Positions 10,943-60,522 of a DNA stretch of 64,000 nucleotides are shown in pieces. A program made the translations under genes and the position numbers. Under the pieces are notes generated by a model. The model made no database searches. It was given only the letters and a program-made list of their open reading frames with translations, and was not told the DNA's origin. The stretch lies in NCBI GenBank assembly GCA_000467715.1, contig AJFK01000612.1, forward strand, positions 186,001-250,000. Reading direction: 5' to 3'. Position 1 is the stretch's first letter. The number at the start of each line of letters is the position of its first letter. This stretch comes from Hysterium pulicare CBS 123377 (lineage: Eukaryota > Ascomycota > Dothideomycetes > Hysteriales > Hysteriaceae).

Positions 10943-12424
10943 GGAGCCGGGGAGCCCAGAAAGGGGCAGAAGCGAGCGGTTGCAGGCTTGACTCCGGAGT
11001 GTTTGGGTGTGTCAATTGCGGCTCATAGATGAACTTAGGCATAAGACCGGTAACCACGATCCAAAGAAAAAAGAACGGGCTCTAGGTTGGTTGGTCGGGG
11101 CAGAGGAGTTTATCTGGATGAAATAATACTGTTGCATTCATGTTACATATTTCCCGACGATTCATAGTGCCAGGCGCCTAGACTGTTCGTACCACCCAAT
11201 ATTTTTTGTCCCCAGTTCTGCAATGTCGTCTATGAATAGCGTGATAGAAATCAATGATCGGTTCCTATTTCGTCACGATGTTTATATTAGTCCGGCACTT
11301 GCGGCTCTCCGAGAATTGGATTTTCCCGACGTTTAAAGTCAAGGCATGCCTTTCGCCTGAGCTTCAAGAGGCAACTGGCTATTAATCCTTCCGCCGGGTC
11401 TAAATCATCTATGTAGACCGGTAGAAACAAACAAGGGAGAGGCGGGCATAGTCTTGAAAGGGCTGCCAATTATCTCGCCAATTTACCGGAGGTTGGTAGG
11501 TACCTGGTAGACGCAGAGGTCGTCGGACATTGCGGTGGTGATGTGATTTTGTCCCTTACCCGCATGGAGATGGTGCATCCGTTTCGCGTCCTGCATGGCA
11601 AGGTTGGAAATGAACGATTGGCAGGAATAGCGATCCTCGAATCCTGCCTCTCTGCAGCGCTGCTGGCTTCGGCTACTTGACTTGACGTCGTAGGGTGCAG
11701 GCTTCATGTGGCGTTCTGCAGCGATACACAATTATCGAGCAATCAATATTAATTGCGTGGTTGGTCCTCAGACGCAGGAGGCATGTCCCCCAGCATGCCG
11801 GCTGCATTGAAGTCGCCACAACGACGAAGCCGCAGCCAGCTGGTGCAACACGCAAGCACGCAAGCACGCAAGCATTATTGAGCCAGCCGTGCTGGGCAAA
11901 GACGCTGGCTGGTACAATTGACGCGGCGGCGACGAGTGTCTTGATAGGAGATGGCTGGCTTGGGCGGTGGACAATGCAAAACCGTTTGTTGGCAAGGTGG
12001 GCGGGCCGATTGGCAGTGTTCCTTTGAACAAGCTGCTAGGCCATGGGCACGCTGCGATATGCAGGGGATGCAGCCGATCCGTGCTGCGGCGAGAAACAGG
12101 GAAGCGAATCAAATTGCATGGCGGCCTGTGCTAAGATGAAACGCACTGTTCCCACTGTTCCAAGCTTTCCTTCACTTGTGCTCCCCTATCGCCCGCCAAT
12201 AAATACCGCTCCCCCCTTCCACCTCCTCCATTCCTTTTCCACCACAACACTACTATACTATTCACTCTCACTCACTCGCTTGACTGACGTGTCTGCCTCA
12301 CGCTCGTTTACATTCTTGTCGATAATCTCTGCCTCTTCTACTTCGCTACCTCGACAACATCAACATCCTCACTCCCACACCAACAGACACCAACGAGTCA
12401 GCAAACCACCACCACACAATCAAA
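10943..12424. other. Intergenic region with repeat copy C and promoter of the wall-protein gene
   Basis: About 1.5 kb without a supported gene. It holds repeat copy C near 11371-11445 and a short tandem array at about 11850-11872, where an 8-bp unit GCAAGCAC is repeated about three times. Just before the next gene are a CCAAT/AATAAAT-like element near 12198 and a long pyrimidine- and CA-rich leader, as is common before highly expressed fungal genes. Confidence 0.5.
11371..11445 (-). repeat. Dispersed short repeat, copy C
   Basis: On the minus strand it reads LPCLFLPVY...LIASCLL. It keeps the invariant L, P, Y, L-D, G and A-S-C positions of copies A and B at the same spacing and with no gap. 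It is the most diverged copy. It lies in the spacer downstream of the transporter, about 4.6 kb from copy B. Confidence 0.45.
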
Positions 12425-12898
12425 ATGCGTGCCTCATTCGCTCTCGCCATCATCGCAGCTGTCGCTGTCTCTGCCACACCTGTCGACCCCATCAGCCAAA
12501 TCTCCGACGGTCAATTGCAGGCTCCTACCTCAGTCCCAGCTGTCGCCAGCTCTGCTGCCGCTGCTACCACCGCCGTAGTTGAGACCACAGTTCCAGTCGT
12601 CACCAGCGCCGTTGCGACTGCCCCAGCTGCCTCGGCTCCAGCTGCTTCGGCCCCAGTTGTCGTTACCAGCGCCGTCATCGTCCCATCCGTCGGCGTCTCG
12701 ACTGTCCTCCCAGTCTCCAGCGGTATCTTCCCCAACTCGACTCTCAGCGTCGCTACCTCCGCTGCCGCAACCTCTGTTGGTGCCACTGGTACTGTGCCTG
12801 CTTCCACTAGCGCTCCGGCTCAAACTGGTGCTGCTGTTGCCAACATGGCCTCTTTCGGCACGGTTGCTCTCGCTATCGCCGGTTTCTTCCTTGCTTAA
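12425..12898 (+). CDS. Small PIR-repeat, GPI-anchored cell-wall protein (Cwp-like)
   Basis: A single exon of 157 residues. Residues 1-18 are a clear secretion signal (MRASFALAIIAAVAVSA). Next comes one PIR-type motif, SQISDGQLQAPTS, close to the consensus of yeast Pir and Cwp1/Cwp2 proteins, whose Gln links through an alkali-labile bond to beta-1,3-glucan. The middle is almost entirely Ala, Ser, Thr, Val and Pro and should be heavily O-mannosylated. The C-terminus has a hydrophobic tail (VALAIAGFFLA) after small residues, a GPI-anchor addition signal. There are no cysteines. By analogy with Cwp proteins it would be a structural wall protein attached at two points. The ATG has a good context (CAAAATG) after a long pyrimidine-rich leader, which suggests strong expression. 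Confidence 0.85.
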   Translation: MRASFALAIIAAVAVSATPVDPISQISDGQLQAPTSVPAVASSAAAATTAVVETTVPVVTSAVATAPAASAPAASAPVVVTSAVIVPSVGVSTVLPVSSGIFPNSTLSVATSAAATSVGATGTVPASTSAPAQTGAAVANMASFGTVALAIAGFFLA

Positions 12899-55981: not shown

Positions 55982-57535
55982 TCTTTGGTCCTGAAATACG
56001 TGTATAGGTTGCCAATGAGAATGCTTCTACAATTATGCTTCTGACCTAACGATCGGATGTTCTAATAGACTGCTTTGATAGTGCTAGGTAAGTTTATTGA
56101 ATGCCCAAAGAAGAATAATCGAGGCTTTTTATCTAAATAAGCAGGCCAAAGTCGAGAACTTCATGGCAGATCTGATGTTTTCATTAGTTGTGGAGCTGTT
56201 ATAAGCCTTGATGGTAAGACGTACCATCTTAGTGACTACGCACACATCCAGCTGATGCCAACGGCTTCTAACACGTGCATCTTTGTGTCAAGATCTCTAG
56301 ATCTACAGATGTCAGTTTTGAGGGCTTCCTGAGCAGCTATCATGTCGTGGTCTACTCCAGCCAAGGAAAAATGTTAGGTTTGTGGTCTGTGGCGTTTGAA
56401 ACAACCATTGCGCGTTGGATTTGGTTACATAACAGAAGAAGCCGGTGAAAGGATCCCACTATTCAGGTCGTGTTGATGTGCCATCGTGACTTTTGCAGCA
56501 AGCCGACTTCGGTGATAGCTAGCTTGACACGCAGTGGTGGTTGGGGTGAGTTCTAGACCTCATGCATCGCTCGATGAGACAAATGATTGGAATCATGCCA
56601 CGAAGCTGGGGCGTGTCAGTACGACTGGATCCCTGGGCGTTCGGAGATACAGCAGGAACACCGCTATAGGATTTCGATTGTCAAAATGCTTAGCTGATAA
56701 GCCTGTATATGCTTGATCGAACGCTGAAAAGCTTTCCATATTGTAAATCAAAGAGAGGACATATTGGACTGGTGCAAGAAAGTGATCGCATAGTGATGCT
56801 TGTAGAAATTCCATGATGATGTTCGGGGTCCGACTTCTTCCTCAGACTGGAGAAAGTGACGAATAAAGCTGATGATGGTAGATAATGCACTCAAACAACG
56901 GCTGAGAAACAAACATTCGTGGCGGTGAGTCAAATGTCCCACGACGTCTTTTGTCCAATCTAACCAGCCCAAGAGATGTAGATGTACCTTTGAGACCTAC
57001 TTTTCATGCAGTTTTCTATCCATTTTCCAGCCATTGCAGTTGGATCAAGGTTACAAAAGGTAGCGGGGCAGCCGTATGTCAGTTTGCAGAACCAATAAAA
57101 GTTCGAGAGACGTGAAGATTGGCACGGTTGGGTGCTTTTCAGAAGCGCGCGGAGAAAGGTATCGCATCGTGATGGTGTTTATGGTGGAAGAAGGATGCGG
57201 GTTTATGCAGAGGAACGTGGAAAGGGGCTCGTGGCCGCCACAGCATGAGCCTTGAAGGCCTAGCGAGTCAGCAGACAACATCTTAACAAGTTGTGCTACG
57301 GGAATAGATTAGACAACGATAAGCGGAGGATTCTCATCGTAGAACAAGATATGCTACTGCTGTTGGACTCTGAACGCTAAACTAATCCATGACTAATCCA
57401 TTCAAGGATCTTCATCGGCATCCCAATCAGGTAGGCCAAATCAATGTTGGACTGGTATGACTCTTTCACCTCTCACTACATCTTCAAAGGCGAATGGAAC
57501 TTTGATTTCTCCAGTTTGTTTCACAAAAGATCACC
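55982..57535. other. Long divergent intergenic region
   Basis: About 1.55 kb with the promoters of the GH51 gene and the GNAT gene. Only short frames on both strands; none looks coding. No RNA gene or repeat family could be identified. Confidence 0.45.
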
Positions 57536-58624
57536 ATGTCCACCCCTCAAGTTTACACCCACCCTTCCAACTCCCCCTCACTTCATCGAGTTCTCAAACA
57601 CAGTCTCCCATACTGCGTACCACTATACTACCGAATCCAACACAAGAACACGACTCCATACGCCCAGATCCTAGCAACATTTCCACCGTCAGATGAAGAG
57701 GATGCGGTCATACCAGCTCATTTCGCTGCGGCCTACTTGGATCGTTCTAGGCGTCCTGAGACCGAATTGTGGGCATTTGCCAACGGCGAAGTACCAGATC
57801 ACGTGCATGAGAATGTGCGAAGTGCTTCAAGTTCAGAGTCAAAAGCAGCAATGAATTCTGAAAATACGCTTTGTCCAACTTGCGCGTCCCACTTTCTCTC
57901 AATAATATCCCATATCTCGACTCTCCCCCTGCCCCCAATGGACCCAGCAAAGGAACATTATCTCAGCATCGCCCTCGAGCACGAGAAACAATATCCGGAC
58001 CTCAGCACACTCTCAAACCTCCCCACAACCACCGGTTCGTTAGTCCGTCAGTTACTCATCCCTTCCGTCGTAACCTTCGGAACTGTTCACTCGTCCTTAG
58101 TAACACTCTCGCTAGAGCATGGGTTACTTCGTCACGACCTCACAGGCATAGAAAAACCTTTGAATAAGTTCATATTCCGGATTGCGGATTTACCTGTTAC
58201 TAGAGATCTACCCGAGGGACTCAGATGGGGAGAAATGAGACCTCAGGACATCGGGATAGTGCAATCGCGAACCATAATTCCACGCAGTACAAGCACCCTC
58301 CTTAGCTGGAAAAGCGTTGGGGTCTTCGAAGAAGATACCGATAAACCCGTTGCATGGACATTTTTGGGGGAGGATGGAAGTTTGGCGACATTGCACACGG
58401 AGCCTGAATTTCGGGGGAGAGGGATAGCGAAGGCGGTTGCTGCTAAGTGCTTTAGGGACTATGTTCCACAGATAGCGAAGGATGAGCATGGGGATGCATG
58501 GGCGCATGCGGATGTATATAGGGGGAATGTGCAGAGTGAAGGGGTTTGTAAGAGTTTGGGTGGGAAGGCTTTGTGGACGAGTTTTTGGGTGAGGTTGGAT
58601 GTAGATAGGGCTAAGGGGCTATAG
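57536..58624 (+). CDS. GNAT-family N-acetyltransferase (FR47-like)
   Basis: An intronless gene of 362 residues. The start at 57536 has a strong context (CACCATGT). The C-terminal third holds the acetyl-CoA fold: VGVFEEDTDKPVAWTFLGEDGSLATLHTEPEFRGRGIAKAVAAK contains the beta-bulge and the pyrophosphate-binding R/QxxGxG/A loop (EFRGRGIAKA), followed by HADVYRGNVQSEGVCKSLGGK, the usual last helix-strand unit. The N-terminal 200 residues are less conserved, with a Cys pair in LCPTCASHF and several leucine-rich stretches. It resembles fungal GNATs related to glycine N-acyltransferase (FR47). The substrate is unknown. It is probably cytosolic, as there is no signal peptide. Confidence 0.82.
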   Translation: MSTPQVYTHPSNSPSLHRVLKHSLPYCVPLYYRIQHKNTTPYAQILATFPPSDEEDAVIPAHFAAAYLDRSRRPETELWAFANGEVPDHVHENVRSASSSESKAAMNSENTLCPTCASHFLSIISHISTLPLPPMDPAKEHYLSIALEHEKQYPDLSTLSNLPTTTGSLVRQLLIPSVVTFGTVHSSLVTLSLEHGLLRHDLTGIEKPLNKFIFRIADLPVTRDLPEGLRWGEMRPQDIGIVQSRTIIPRSTSTLLSWKSVGVFEEDTDKPVAWTFLGEDGSLATLHTEPEFRGRGIAKAVAAKCFRDYVPQIAKDEHGDAWAHADVYRGNVQSEGVCKSLGGKALWTSFWVRLDVDRAKGL

Positions 58625-59080: not shown

Positions 59081-60522
59081 CTAGTCGAACAGACCGAAGC
59101 CCATGTCCTCATCTTCCGATTCTTCAGGTTCGGCTTCCTTCTCGGCTTCCTTGGGCGCTTCAGTGTCGCCGCCGCCCGTAGTATCGCCGCCAGTAGGACC
59201 TGAGGAAGCGTACTTGTCAGGGTTCGCAATGCGGTCCTTGAGTTCCTGAATTTCTTCCCAGTCATAGTCGGTCTCAACAGCAACGGCAAGTACCTTCTTG
59301 TAGGAGTTGACGACTGAGTGCATGACCGAAGGCAGGGTTGGGTAATTGGCCGCAAGGGAAATAGTGGCGATCGTCGTAATGGCGGTAGAGAATGCCTTGA
59401 GCAGTTGCGACTCTTCGATATCCAGAACGTCGGATGCAAAAGTCTGTCCGCCGTCGTAGATCTGAGAGATACCCATACCATAAGTGAAGGGACTATATCA
59501 TTGTCAATTATATGCTACGTCTTTGAATCGCTGCTCGTTACGTACGAGATCTGTTAACATAATTAGCAAAGCACATGTGAGTTTATCAAGGAAACGGCAT
59601 ACATTTAACATGTTCAGGAGCGTAGCTTCTGATGCTCCCACTTTGGTACCGGCTTCGACAAGCTTGAGGTCGGTGGTAATTTCGATAGTACCACGGGCGA
59701 TCTTTGTGGGTACACCAAGAGCTTGGAAGAAGGAGGTCTTTCCGGGTTCCATACCACTGCATTTTTTTAGCCTCATAGTTCCCCAAAGTCCGATTTGTAT
59801 ACCACATACGTATTTCCGGCAGGAACAAAGACATCACCGGGAGCAACTGCACCTGCACGGGCAGGTGCTGCGACGCGGTTGGAAAGGATTTTGTCTCGAG
59901 TCTCCTTCAAATCCCCATTGGTGAAGACGAAGCCAACGTTGCCTGCAAATCATCAGCGCATGCTGCTGAGAATGTCAAATGAGAGAGCGAACCTTTAACA
60001 TGAGGAAGAAGGCGCTCGTATTCCGGAAAGTCGGCAATGAATCCCTTAAGAGCTCGTCGAACCATGGTATTCTGTTACGGAAAAGAAGCAGTTAATAAAG
60101 GAGTTCGAACTAAACCGATTTAAAGAGCATTAGGATCGAATTTTACCTTTCCCATCAGAACGACACCCTCTCCTCTAAGGCTATTGCAAAATGCTCATTA
60201 GCATATACCCAAGGGCGAGGCAGACATCGGACAAGAGCAATGGGACACTTCAAGGAAGCAAGCCTGCCAAAATATGTCCTAGGGCTTTTGTCCACATGCC
60301 TACGGGGGCGGGGAAACCGTACGATTGTCTGATTTCGTGCATCTGCTGAGATGACACATTGTCGACGGTCACGATGAAGATGCTCTTGAACTGTTCAATT
60401 CGTAAACGGTCAGCAAAGGTTCGTTAAAACTAATGGTGAGGAGCATAAGGATCAAGTACATCTTTCAAAAGCTTCTCCAATTTGTCAAAGTATGCCGCTT
60501 TGGTATTCGTCTTGCCCCCCAT
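59081..60522 (-). CDS. RPP0: 60S acidic ribosomal protein P0 (uL10)
   Basis: About seven to eight coding exons, including a 5-nt microexon, give about 312 residues. P0 anchors the P1/P2 stalk to the large subunit. It reads [80 protein letters not shown] (as [19 protein letters not shown] and RLLPHVKG), [56 protein letters not shown] and the stalk tail [13 protein letters not shown]. The intron between RQS and LRGEG is the longest (about 150 nt). The final exon is 59081-59492. Its start codon lies 201 bp from that of TRM82 on the other strand. Confidence 0.95.
59546..59550 (-). other. 5-nt microexon of RPP0
   Basis: ATCTC on the minus strand, between a TTAACAG acceptor and a GTACGT donor. It joins LLNMLN to PFTYGMG as N-I-S-P-F, exactly the conserved LNISPFT of P0 proteins. 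The flanking introns are 52 nt (59551-59602) and 53 nt (59493-59545). Skipping it shifts the frame of the last 137 codons. Confidence 0.85.

Follow-up and report, generated by a model that had tools for sequence, protein, structure and literature searches.

The question raised by this locus is how the coding sequence of a ribosomal protein gene crosses the 110 nt that separate its sixth exon from its last, and in particular whether five of those bases are retained in the mRNA as an exon of their own. The gene model, which was built from the sequence, runs on the minus strand from 60522 to 59081 of the window (the whole 64,000-nt stretch of DNA analysed here) and comprises a complete RPP0 gene for ribosomal protein P0 (uL10) with 8 exons and 7 introns, its 948 coding bases, stop codon included, giving 315 residues. 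The preliminary description had named the gene as RPP0 and the protein bears this out, as the Pfam domains RL10P_insert (PF17777), Ribosomal_L10 (PF00466) and Ribosomal_60s (PF00428) are all found above cut-off, so that the L10 domain, the L10P insertion domain and the 60S acidic C-terminus that define P0/uL10 proteins are all present. The best of its matches to P0 chains in the PDB is 7olc_Ls (E 5e-152, full length, 74% identity), the source organism of which we take to be Chaetomium. A DNA search of the 37.2-Mb genome with a 291-base piece of exon 8 gave 1 match, indicating one RPP0 copy at the DNA level.

In the gene model, all on the minus strand, exon 1 (60460..60522, 63 nt, with the start codon) is followed by exon 2 (60323..60390, 68 nt), exon 3 (60147..60180, 34 nt), exon 4 (59993..60071, 79 nt), exon 5 (59810..59942, 133 nt) and exon 6 (59603..59756, 154 nt), and the gene closes with exon 8 (59081..59492, 412 nt including the stop codon). 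The longest intron of the gene is intron 2 (60181-60322, minus strand, 142 nt), inside which no Rfam match was found. The 110 nt between exons 6 and 8 (59602..59493) read GTATGC ... AACAG/ATCTC/GTACGT ... TATAG, and the 5-nt exon that had been proposed here is found at exactly the sites given for it. ATCTC occupies 59550..59546 as exon 7 (59546..59550, minus strand, 5 nt) and is flanked by intron 6 (59551..59602, minus strand, 52 nt, GTATGC...AACAG) and intron 7 (59493..59545, minus strand, 53 nt, GTACGT...TATAG). Both introns have a branch-point match to YTRAY, CTAAT in intron 6 and TTGAC in intron 7, the A of which is followed by 12 and 11 intron bases respectively, the median among the training introns described below being 15.

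The argument from reading frame stands up equally well. Exon 6 ends with a complete AAT codon (Asn177) and exon 8 starts T-CCC-TTC-ACT, its first base being the third base of Ser179, so that two bases are needed at the joint; these are supplied by ATCTC, which contributes the Ile178 codon and the first two bases of Ser179 within LLNMLNISPFTYG. With the five bases in place the joint reads AAT ATC TCT CCC TTC, that is Asn-Ile-Ser-Pro-Phe (NISPF). ATCTC can be classed as an ultra-small microexon, as it is an internal exon of <=15 nt between AG and GT, has full splice signals on each flanking intron according to the self-trained model, and is required both for the frame and for the conserved protein. 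It does not belong with switch-like cassette microexons, the length of which is usually a multiple of three with both forms in frame, since at 5 nt its skipping shifts the frame, nor is it a recursive splice site (zero-nt exon), since five coding bases sit between acceptor and donor.

The residues at the joint are those expected of a P0 protein. Ile178 and Ser179 are invariant in a 4-sequence alignment of the P0 studied here with three P0 chains from the PDB search, in agreement with the motif conservation to which the preliminary description had appealed. When residues M175 to W257 (83 aa) were used as the query 28 distinct PDB chain sequences were matched, with query and chain of equal length in 28 of 28 and hence no net gap at the joint; NISP can be read in all five of the alignments that were printed, the other 23 chains being judged by coordinates only. 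P0 relatives were also sought in a general genome contig collection (41 and 43 pattern matches) and a viral contig collection (12 and 29), and none was confirmed in either.

All GT-AG splicing was enumerated within the 110 nt and 60 nt on each side, which gave 1056 forms (1 unspliced, 74 single-intron, 315 two-intron and 666 nested). The ATCTC form is the only one of these that reads NISPF before a stop, in keeping with the earlier claim that nothing but ATCTC would supply Ile-Ser at this point, and, averaged over three P0 references, its BLOSUM score is the best at 624, the runner-up at 595 being a weak-donor form with an insertion. One alternative is that the 110 nt are a single intron (59602..59493), either ordinary or nested as in a stwintron, with no exon between. 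The outer donor (7.7) and outer acceptor (5.7) do score well, a length of 110 nt is not clearly excessive in a gene whose intron 2 has 142 nt, and Aspergillus is known to have introns of the nested type (PMC6616335). However, with ATCTC left out and 59603 joined to 59492, the 943 coding bases that remain are frameshifted and run to a stop after 72 foreign codons (a 72-aa open reading frame at 59274..59492), so that the C-terminal 138 native residues are lost. Furthermore, none of the 666 nested forms reads NISPF and every one scores below the microexon form; in a stwintron a splice element of the external intron is interrupted by the internal one and the whole unit is removed in frame, whereas removal of all 110 nt here shifts the frame. 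It would therefore seem extremely improbable that this stretch is a single intron of either kind.

It could also be envisaged that there is one intron whose ends are shifted or non-canonical, at the price of a slightly altered P0, and such introns have the merit of being in frame. Excision of 59609-59493 gives LLNIPFTYG, and the single excisions that come nearest to the motif are NYSPF, from a GT-GA intron at 59602-59498, and NSPF, from a GT-AT intron at 59602-59495. Against them, the donor at 59609 (GTTAAA) is very weak with a score of -3.9, GT-GA and GT-AT are not known as the ends of any usual intron class, and residues that are invariant in the aligned P0 proteins are lost or changed in each case. 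Removal of one stretch, with any dinucleotides at its ends, never produced NISPF in the region and the 45 nt beyond it on both sides, and we rate this possibility just as poorly as the single 110-nt intron.

Splice sites were scored with a model self-trained on 43 predicted introns from 264 kb of the same genome, the RPP0 introns being left out; the training introns, all of them predicted from sequence, were chosen partly by GT/YAG/branch-point rules. The model is the third that was made, with stricter gates, the first two having been dropped as one ended at 10 introns and the other went astray, picking up implausible introns and yielding a weak model. Because it was picked after these two were seen to be poor, and because it fits RPP0 itself unevenly (relative to the training set, donors 1-3 reach the 2nd percentile at most and acceptor 1 the 0th, and a YTRAY match is lacking in intron 5), its scores are a rough guide only. 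Read in that way, introns 6 and 7 each have a GTAYGY donor, a branch-point match and a YAG acceptor of their own, with donor scores of 7.7 for intron 6 (59602) and 6.0 for intron 7 (59545), which among all GT correspond to the 98.7th and 96.8th percentile and among training introns to the 26th and 14th. The corresponding acceptor scores, to be taken with the same reserve, are 6.0 (59551) and 5.7 (59493), at the 94.1 and 91.9 percentile of all AG and the 60th and 53rd among training introns. Of all acceptors in the 110 nt and the adjoining 60 nt to left and right, the two that score highest are 59551 and 59493 themselves, and the two top-scoring donors within the 110 nt are 59602 and 59545.

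The highest-scoring GT of the region with 60 nt on each side is a further site, 59478 (8.0, ATG/GTATGG), which is inside exon 8 and scores above both real donors beside the microexon. A second donor-like site, 59472 (TGG/GTATCT, 4.8, minus strand), is found close to it, the two being 14-20 nt inside exon 8 where the protein is conserved. As the AGs 40-130 nt behind 59478 are weak, with scores of <=1.3, and the protein there is conserved, 59478 seems to be an unused decoy donor.

The extent to which such an arrangement could arise by chance was assessed by dinucleotide shuffling of the 110 nt (300,000 shuffles), in which the first six and last three bases were fixed and the pattern AG-ATH(TC/AG)-GT was sought with both flanks of >=42 nt. 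A microexon pattern coding for Ile-Ser arose in 174 of the 300,000 shuffles, with both inner sites scoring as high as observed in 0; in a run of 200,000 shuffles, for which the score threshold was slightly above the observed acceptor, the pattern was seen in 113 and sites as good in 0. When coding was ignored, any AG-5nt-GT with 42-nt flanks was found in 19,257 of 300,000 shuffles, both inner sites being as strong as observed in 33. Across 264 kb of this genome, on both strands, the Ile-Ser pattern is present at 15 places (330 of 527,340 110-nt windows, at 22 windows per place), and only that in RPP0 has both site scores >=5.9. The ATCTC microexon is beyond chance expectation and the observation is confirmed.

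We are accordingly left with one explanation that we hold with high confidence, namely that ATCTC would be an internal exon of 5 nt, constitutively spliced into the P0 mRNA of a fungus that is probably a filamentous ascomycete, and set between two ordinary short spliceosomal introns that are spliced by intron definition and probably in a stepwise manner. Only five bases, within the codons Asn177-Ile178-Ser179, would separate the two introns, each of which would be recognised across itself by means of its own donor, branch point and acceptor. At 52 and 53 nt they are near the common length for this genome (quartiles of 51.5 to 73 in the training set), and for introns of about 50 nt the sites are expected to be recognised as a set across the intron. 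With donor, branch point and acceptor paired in this way, the size of the exon between the introns would be of little weight. The preliminary description had viewed an exon of this size as about the smallest that exon-definition splicing could recognise, a framing which is not apt, as the flanking introns suit intron definition and exons of 1 nt have been published (PMC4674806, PMC12940212). With only 5 nt between them, the inner acceptor and the inner donor are unlikely to be bound at the same time, for which reason introns 6 and 7 would probably be excised one after the other; the first splicing event would fuse ATCTC to a neighbouring exon whilst the second site stays intact. Intron definition has been proposed for such exons, and in C. 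elegans a shorter flanking intron is reported to free microexons from PRP-40 (PMC8378409). It is probable on this reading of the sequence that ATCTC is present in nearly all RPP0 mRNA.

It may be asked whether the microexon, although real, is regulated, with skipping or intron retention lowering P0 by frameshift. A 5-nt exon cannot be skipped without breaking the frame, since its length is not divisible by three, and retention of intron 6 alone or of intron 7 alone breaks it too, whilst retention of both regains the downstream frame but introduces two stop codons. Splicing-linked control is a feature of ribosomal protein genes in yeast. In Trichoderma the inclusion of a 20-nt microexon of Xlr2 depends on glucose (PMC11121469). 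The RNA folding of the region is, however, ordinary (z -0.97, with 30 of 200 shuffles folding as well), and a structured RNA element at the 110 nt was rejected as a candidate on the same figures; no Rfam family was found at gathering thresholds in the whole 64-kb window. P0 is moreover an essential and highly expressed protein, so that constitutive inclusion would be expected on grounds of simplicity, and regulation of this kind is considered unlikely. Slightly more doubtful again is the suggestion that the 5-nt exon might act as a fidelity gate on ribosome stalk production, its inclusion tracking spliceosome performance and setting the level of P0, and that a fungal lineage might have retained the arrangement on that account; the suggestion arises because skipping ATCTC or keeping either neighbouring intron breaks P0.

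With regard to the origin of the constitutive exon, two candidates were rejected. Copying of one intron into the other finds no counterpart in the sequences, as introns 6 and 7 are not alike (a local score of 5, reached by 1961 of 2000 shuffles), and for a spreading introner element the 110 nt match only themselves among the best candidates scored when the 37.2-Mb genome was searched with E values of up to 10 allowed. As the introns are unlike and this search gave no second copy, independent gain of one intron beside the other may be put forward as a plain guess. A study of ribosomal protein genes reported that its three Pezizomycotina species tended towards intron gain (PMC1764039).

Ultra-small exons are already known, including in fungi, and RPP0 would appear to be a further case that is well supported by its sequence. 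One close parallel is a 1-nt exon of CYP621A in Fusarium, described from 20 orthologues and RNA reads of two species (PMC12940212). There too a microexon of a filamentous fungus was revealed by a conserved motif that is impossible to assemble without it, and the apparent intron, at 139 nt, is >2x the usual length, as the 110 nt of RPP0 are ~2x; the Fusarium exon differs in being 1 nt in a P450 gene and known from RNA reads, whereas that of RPP0 is 5 nt in a ribosomal protein gene and known from sequence alone. In Arabidopsis a 1-nt exon of APC11 was studied with reporter constructs, and intron definition with stepwise removal was proposed (PMC4674806), as it is here; the APC11 exon is constitutive and needed for the protein, and that of RPP0 likewise restores the frame, but the former is from a plant and lies within an apparent 422-nt intron. 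Human MPC1 has a 4-nt constitutive microexon (PMC9929638) which, as in RPP0, is not a multiple of three, yet its flanking introns are long and exon definition aided by a 67-bp upstream element has been proposed for it.

Adjacent 5-nt and 12-nt microexons in a rice transcript were demonstrated by RT-PCR sequencing (PMC8831610), the smaller being of the same size as that in RPP0 and absent from the annotation, although in a plant and in another gene. The Xlr2 microexon of Trichoderma, again from a filamentous ascomycete, was missed by the automatic gene model, but at 20 nt it is larger and belongs to a transcription factor (PMC11121469). Microexons are also reported from P450 genes of Phanerochaete, where the shortest exon has 6 bp (PMC1184071); this is likewise a fungus with tiny exons and frequent introns of 45-55 bp, though it is a basidiomycete. 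Stwintrons resemble the RPP0 case in that two introns are removed in turn at almost one position, but in them a splice element of one intron is interrupted by the other and no base is kept in the mRNA (PMC6616335), whereas RPP0 must keep five coding bases. Among the titles and abstract openings searched no paper on a microexon in P0 or RPP0 was found, and one may still exist.

What RPP0 would add to this literature is a clean, frame-forced ultra-small exon in a core gene that has one copy as far as a DNA search with one exon shows, and it would bring a ribosomal protein gene to the few published fungal ultra-small exons that we found. The very short flanking introns would furthermore make it a simple case in which to test stepwise intron-defined splicing. 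That gene predictors easily overlook exons of this size, as the preliminary description remarked, agrees with the published microexon reports (PMC4674806, PMC12940212), and if this one were missed P0 would be called truncated or a false gap would be placed at a conserved motif.

Very short exons are apparently not confined to RPP0 in this genome, judging from the sequence of a beta-tubulin gene on contig C445 (L026). Its 5' exons, as read by eye with the tubulin protein as a guide, are of 12, 24 and 26 nt, and the first is followed by the same GTACGT donor. Two matches to the L10 domain were found outside RPP0, at G000:C426:202155-202506 on the minus strand (L022, L023), and these may correspond to an Mrt4-like ribosome assembly factor. 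HET-domain matches are distributed across many contigs, numbering at least 150 (150 of 226 candidates scored), and several have internal stop codons; expansion of this domain is typical of Pezizomycotina, and these matches, taken with the best P0 match (7olc), suggest that the fungus is a filamentous ascomycete. Within the window, a 372-aa open frame on the plus strand (57506-58621) lies tail-to-tail with RPP0 and is acetyltransferase-like by a guess from reading it. Finally, an open frame at 12326-12895, also on the plus strand, has a match to the PIR repeat (PF00399), a yeast cell-wall protein repeat.
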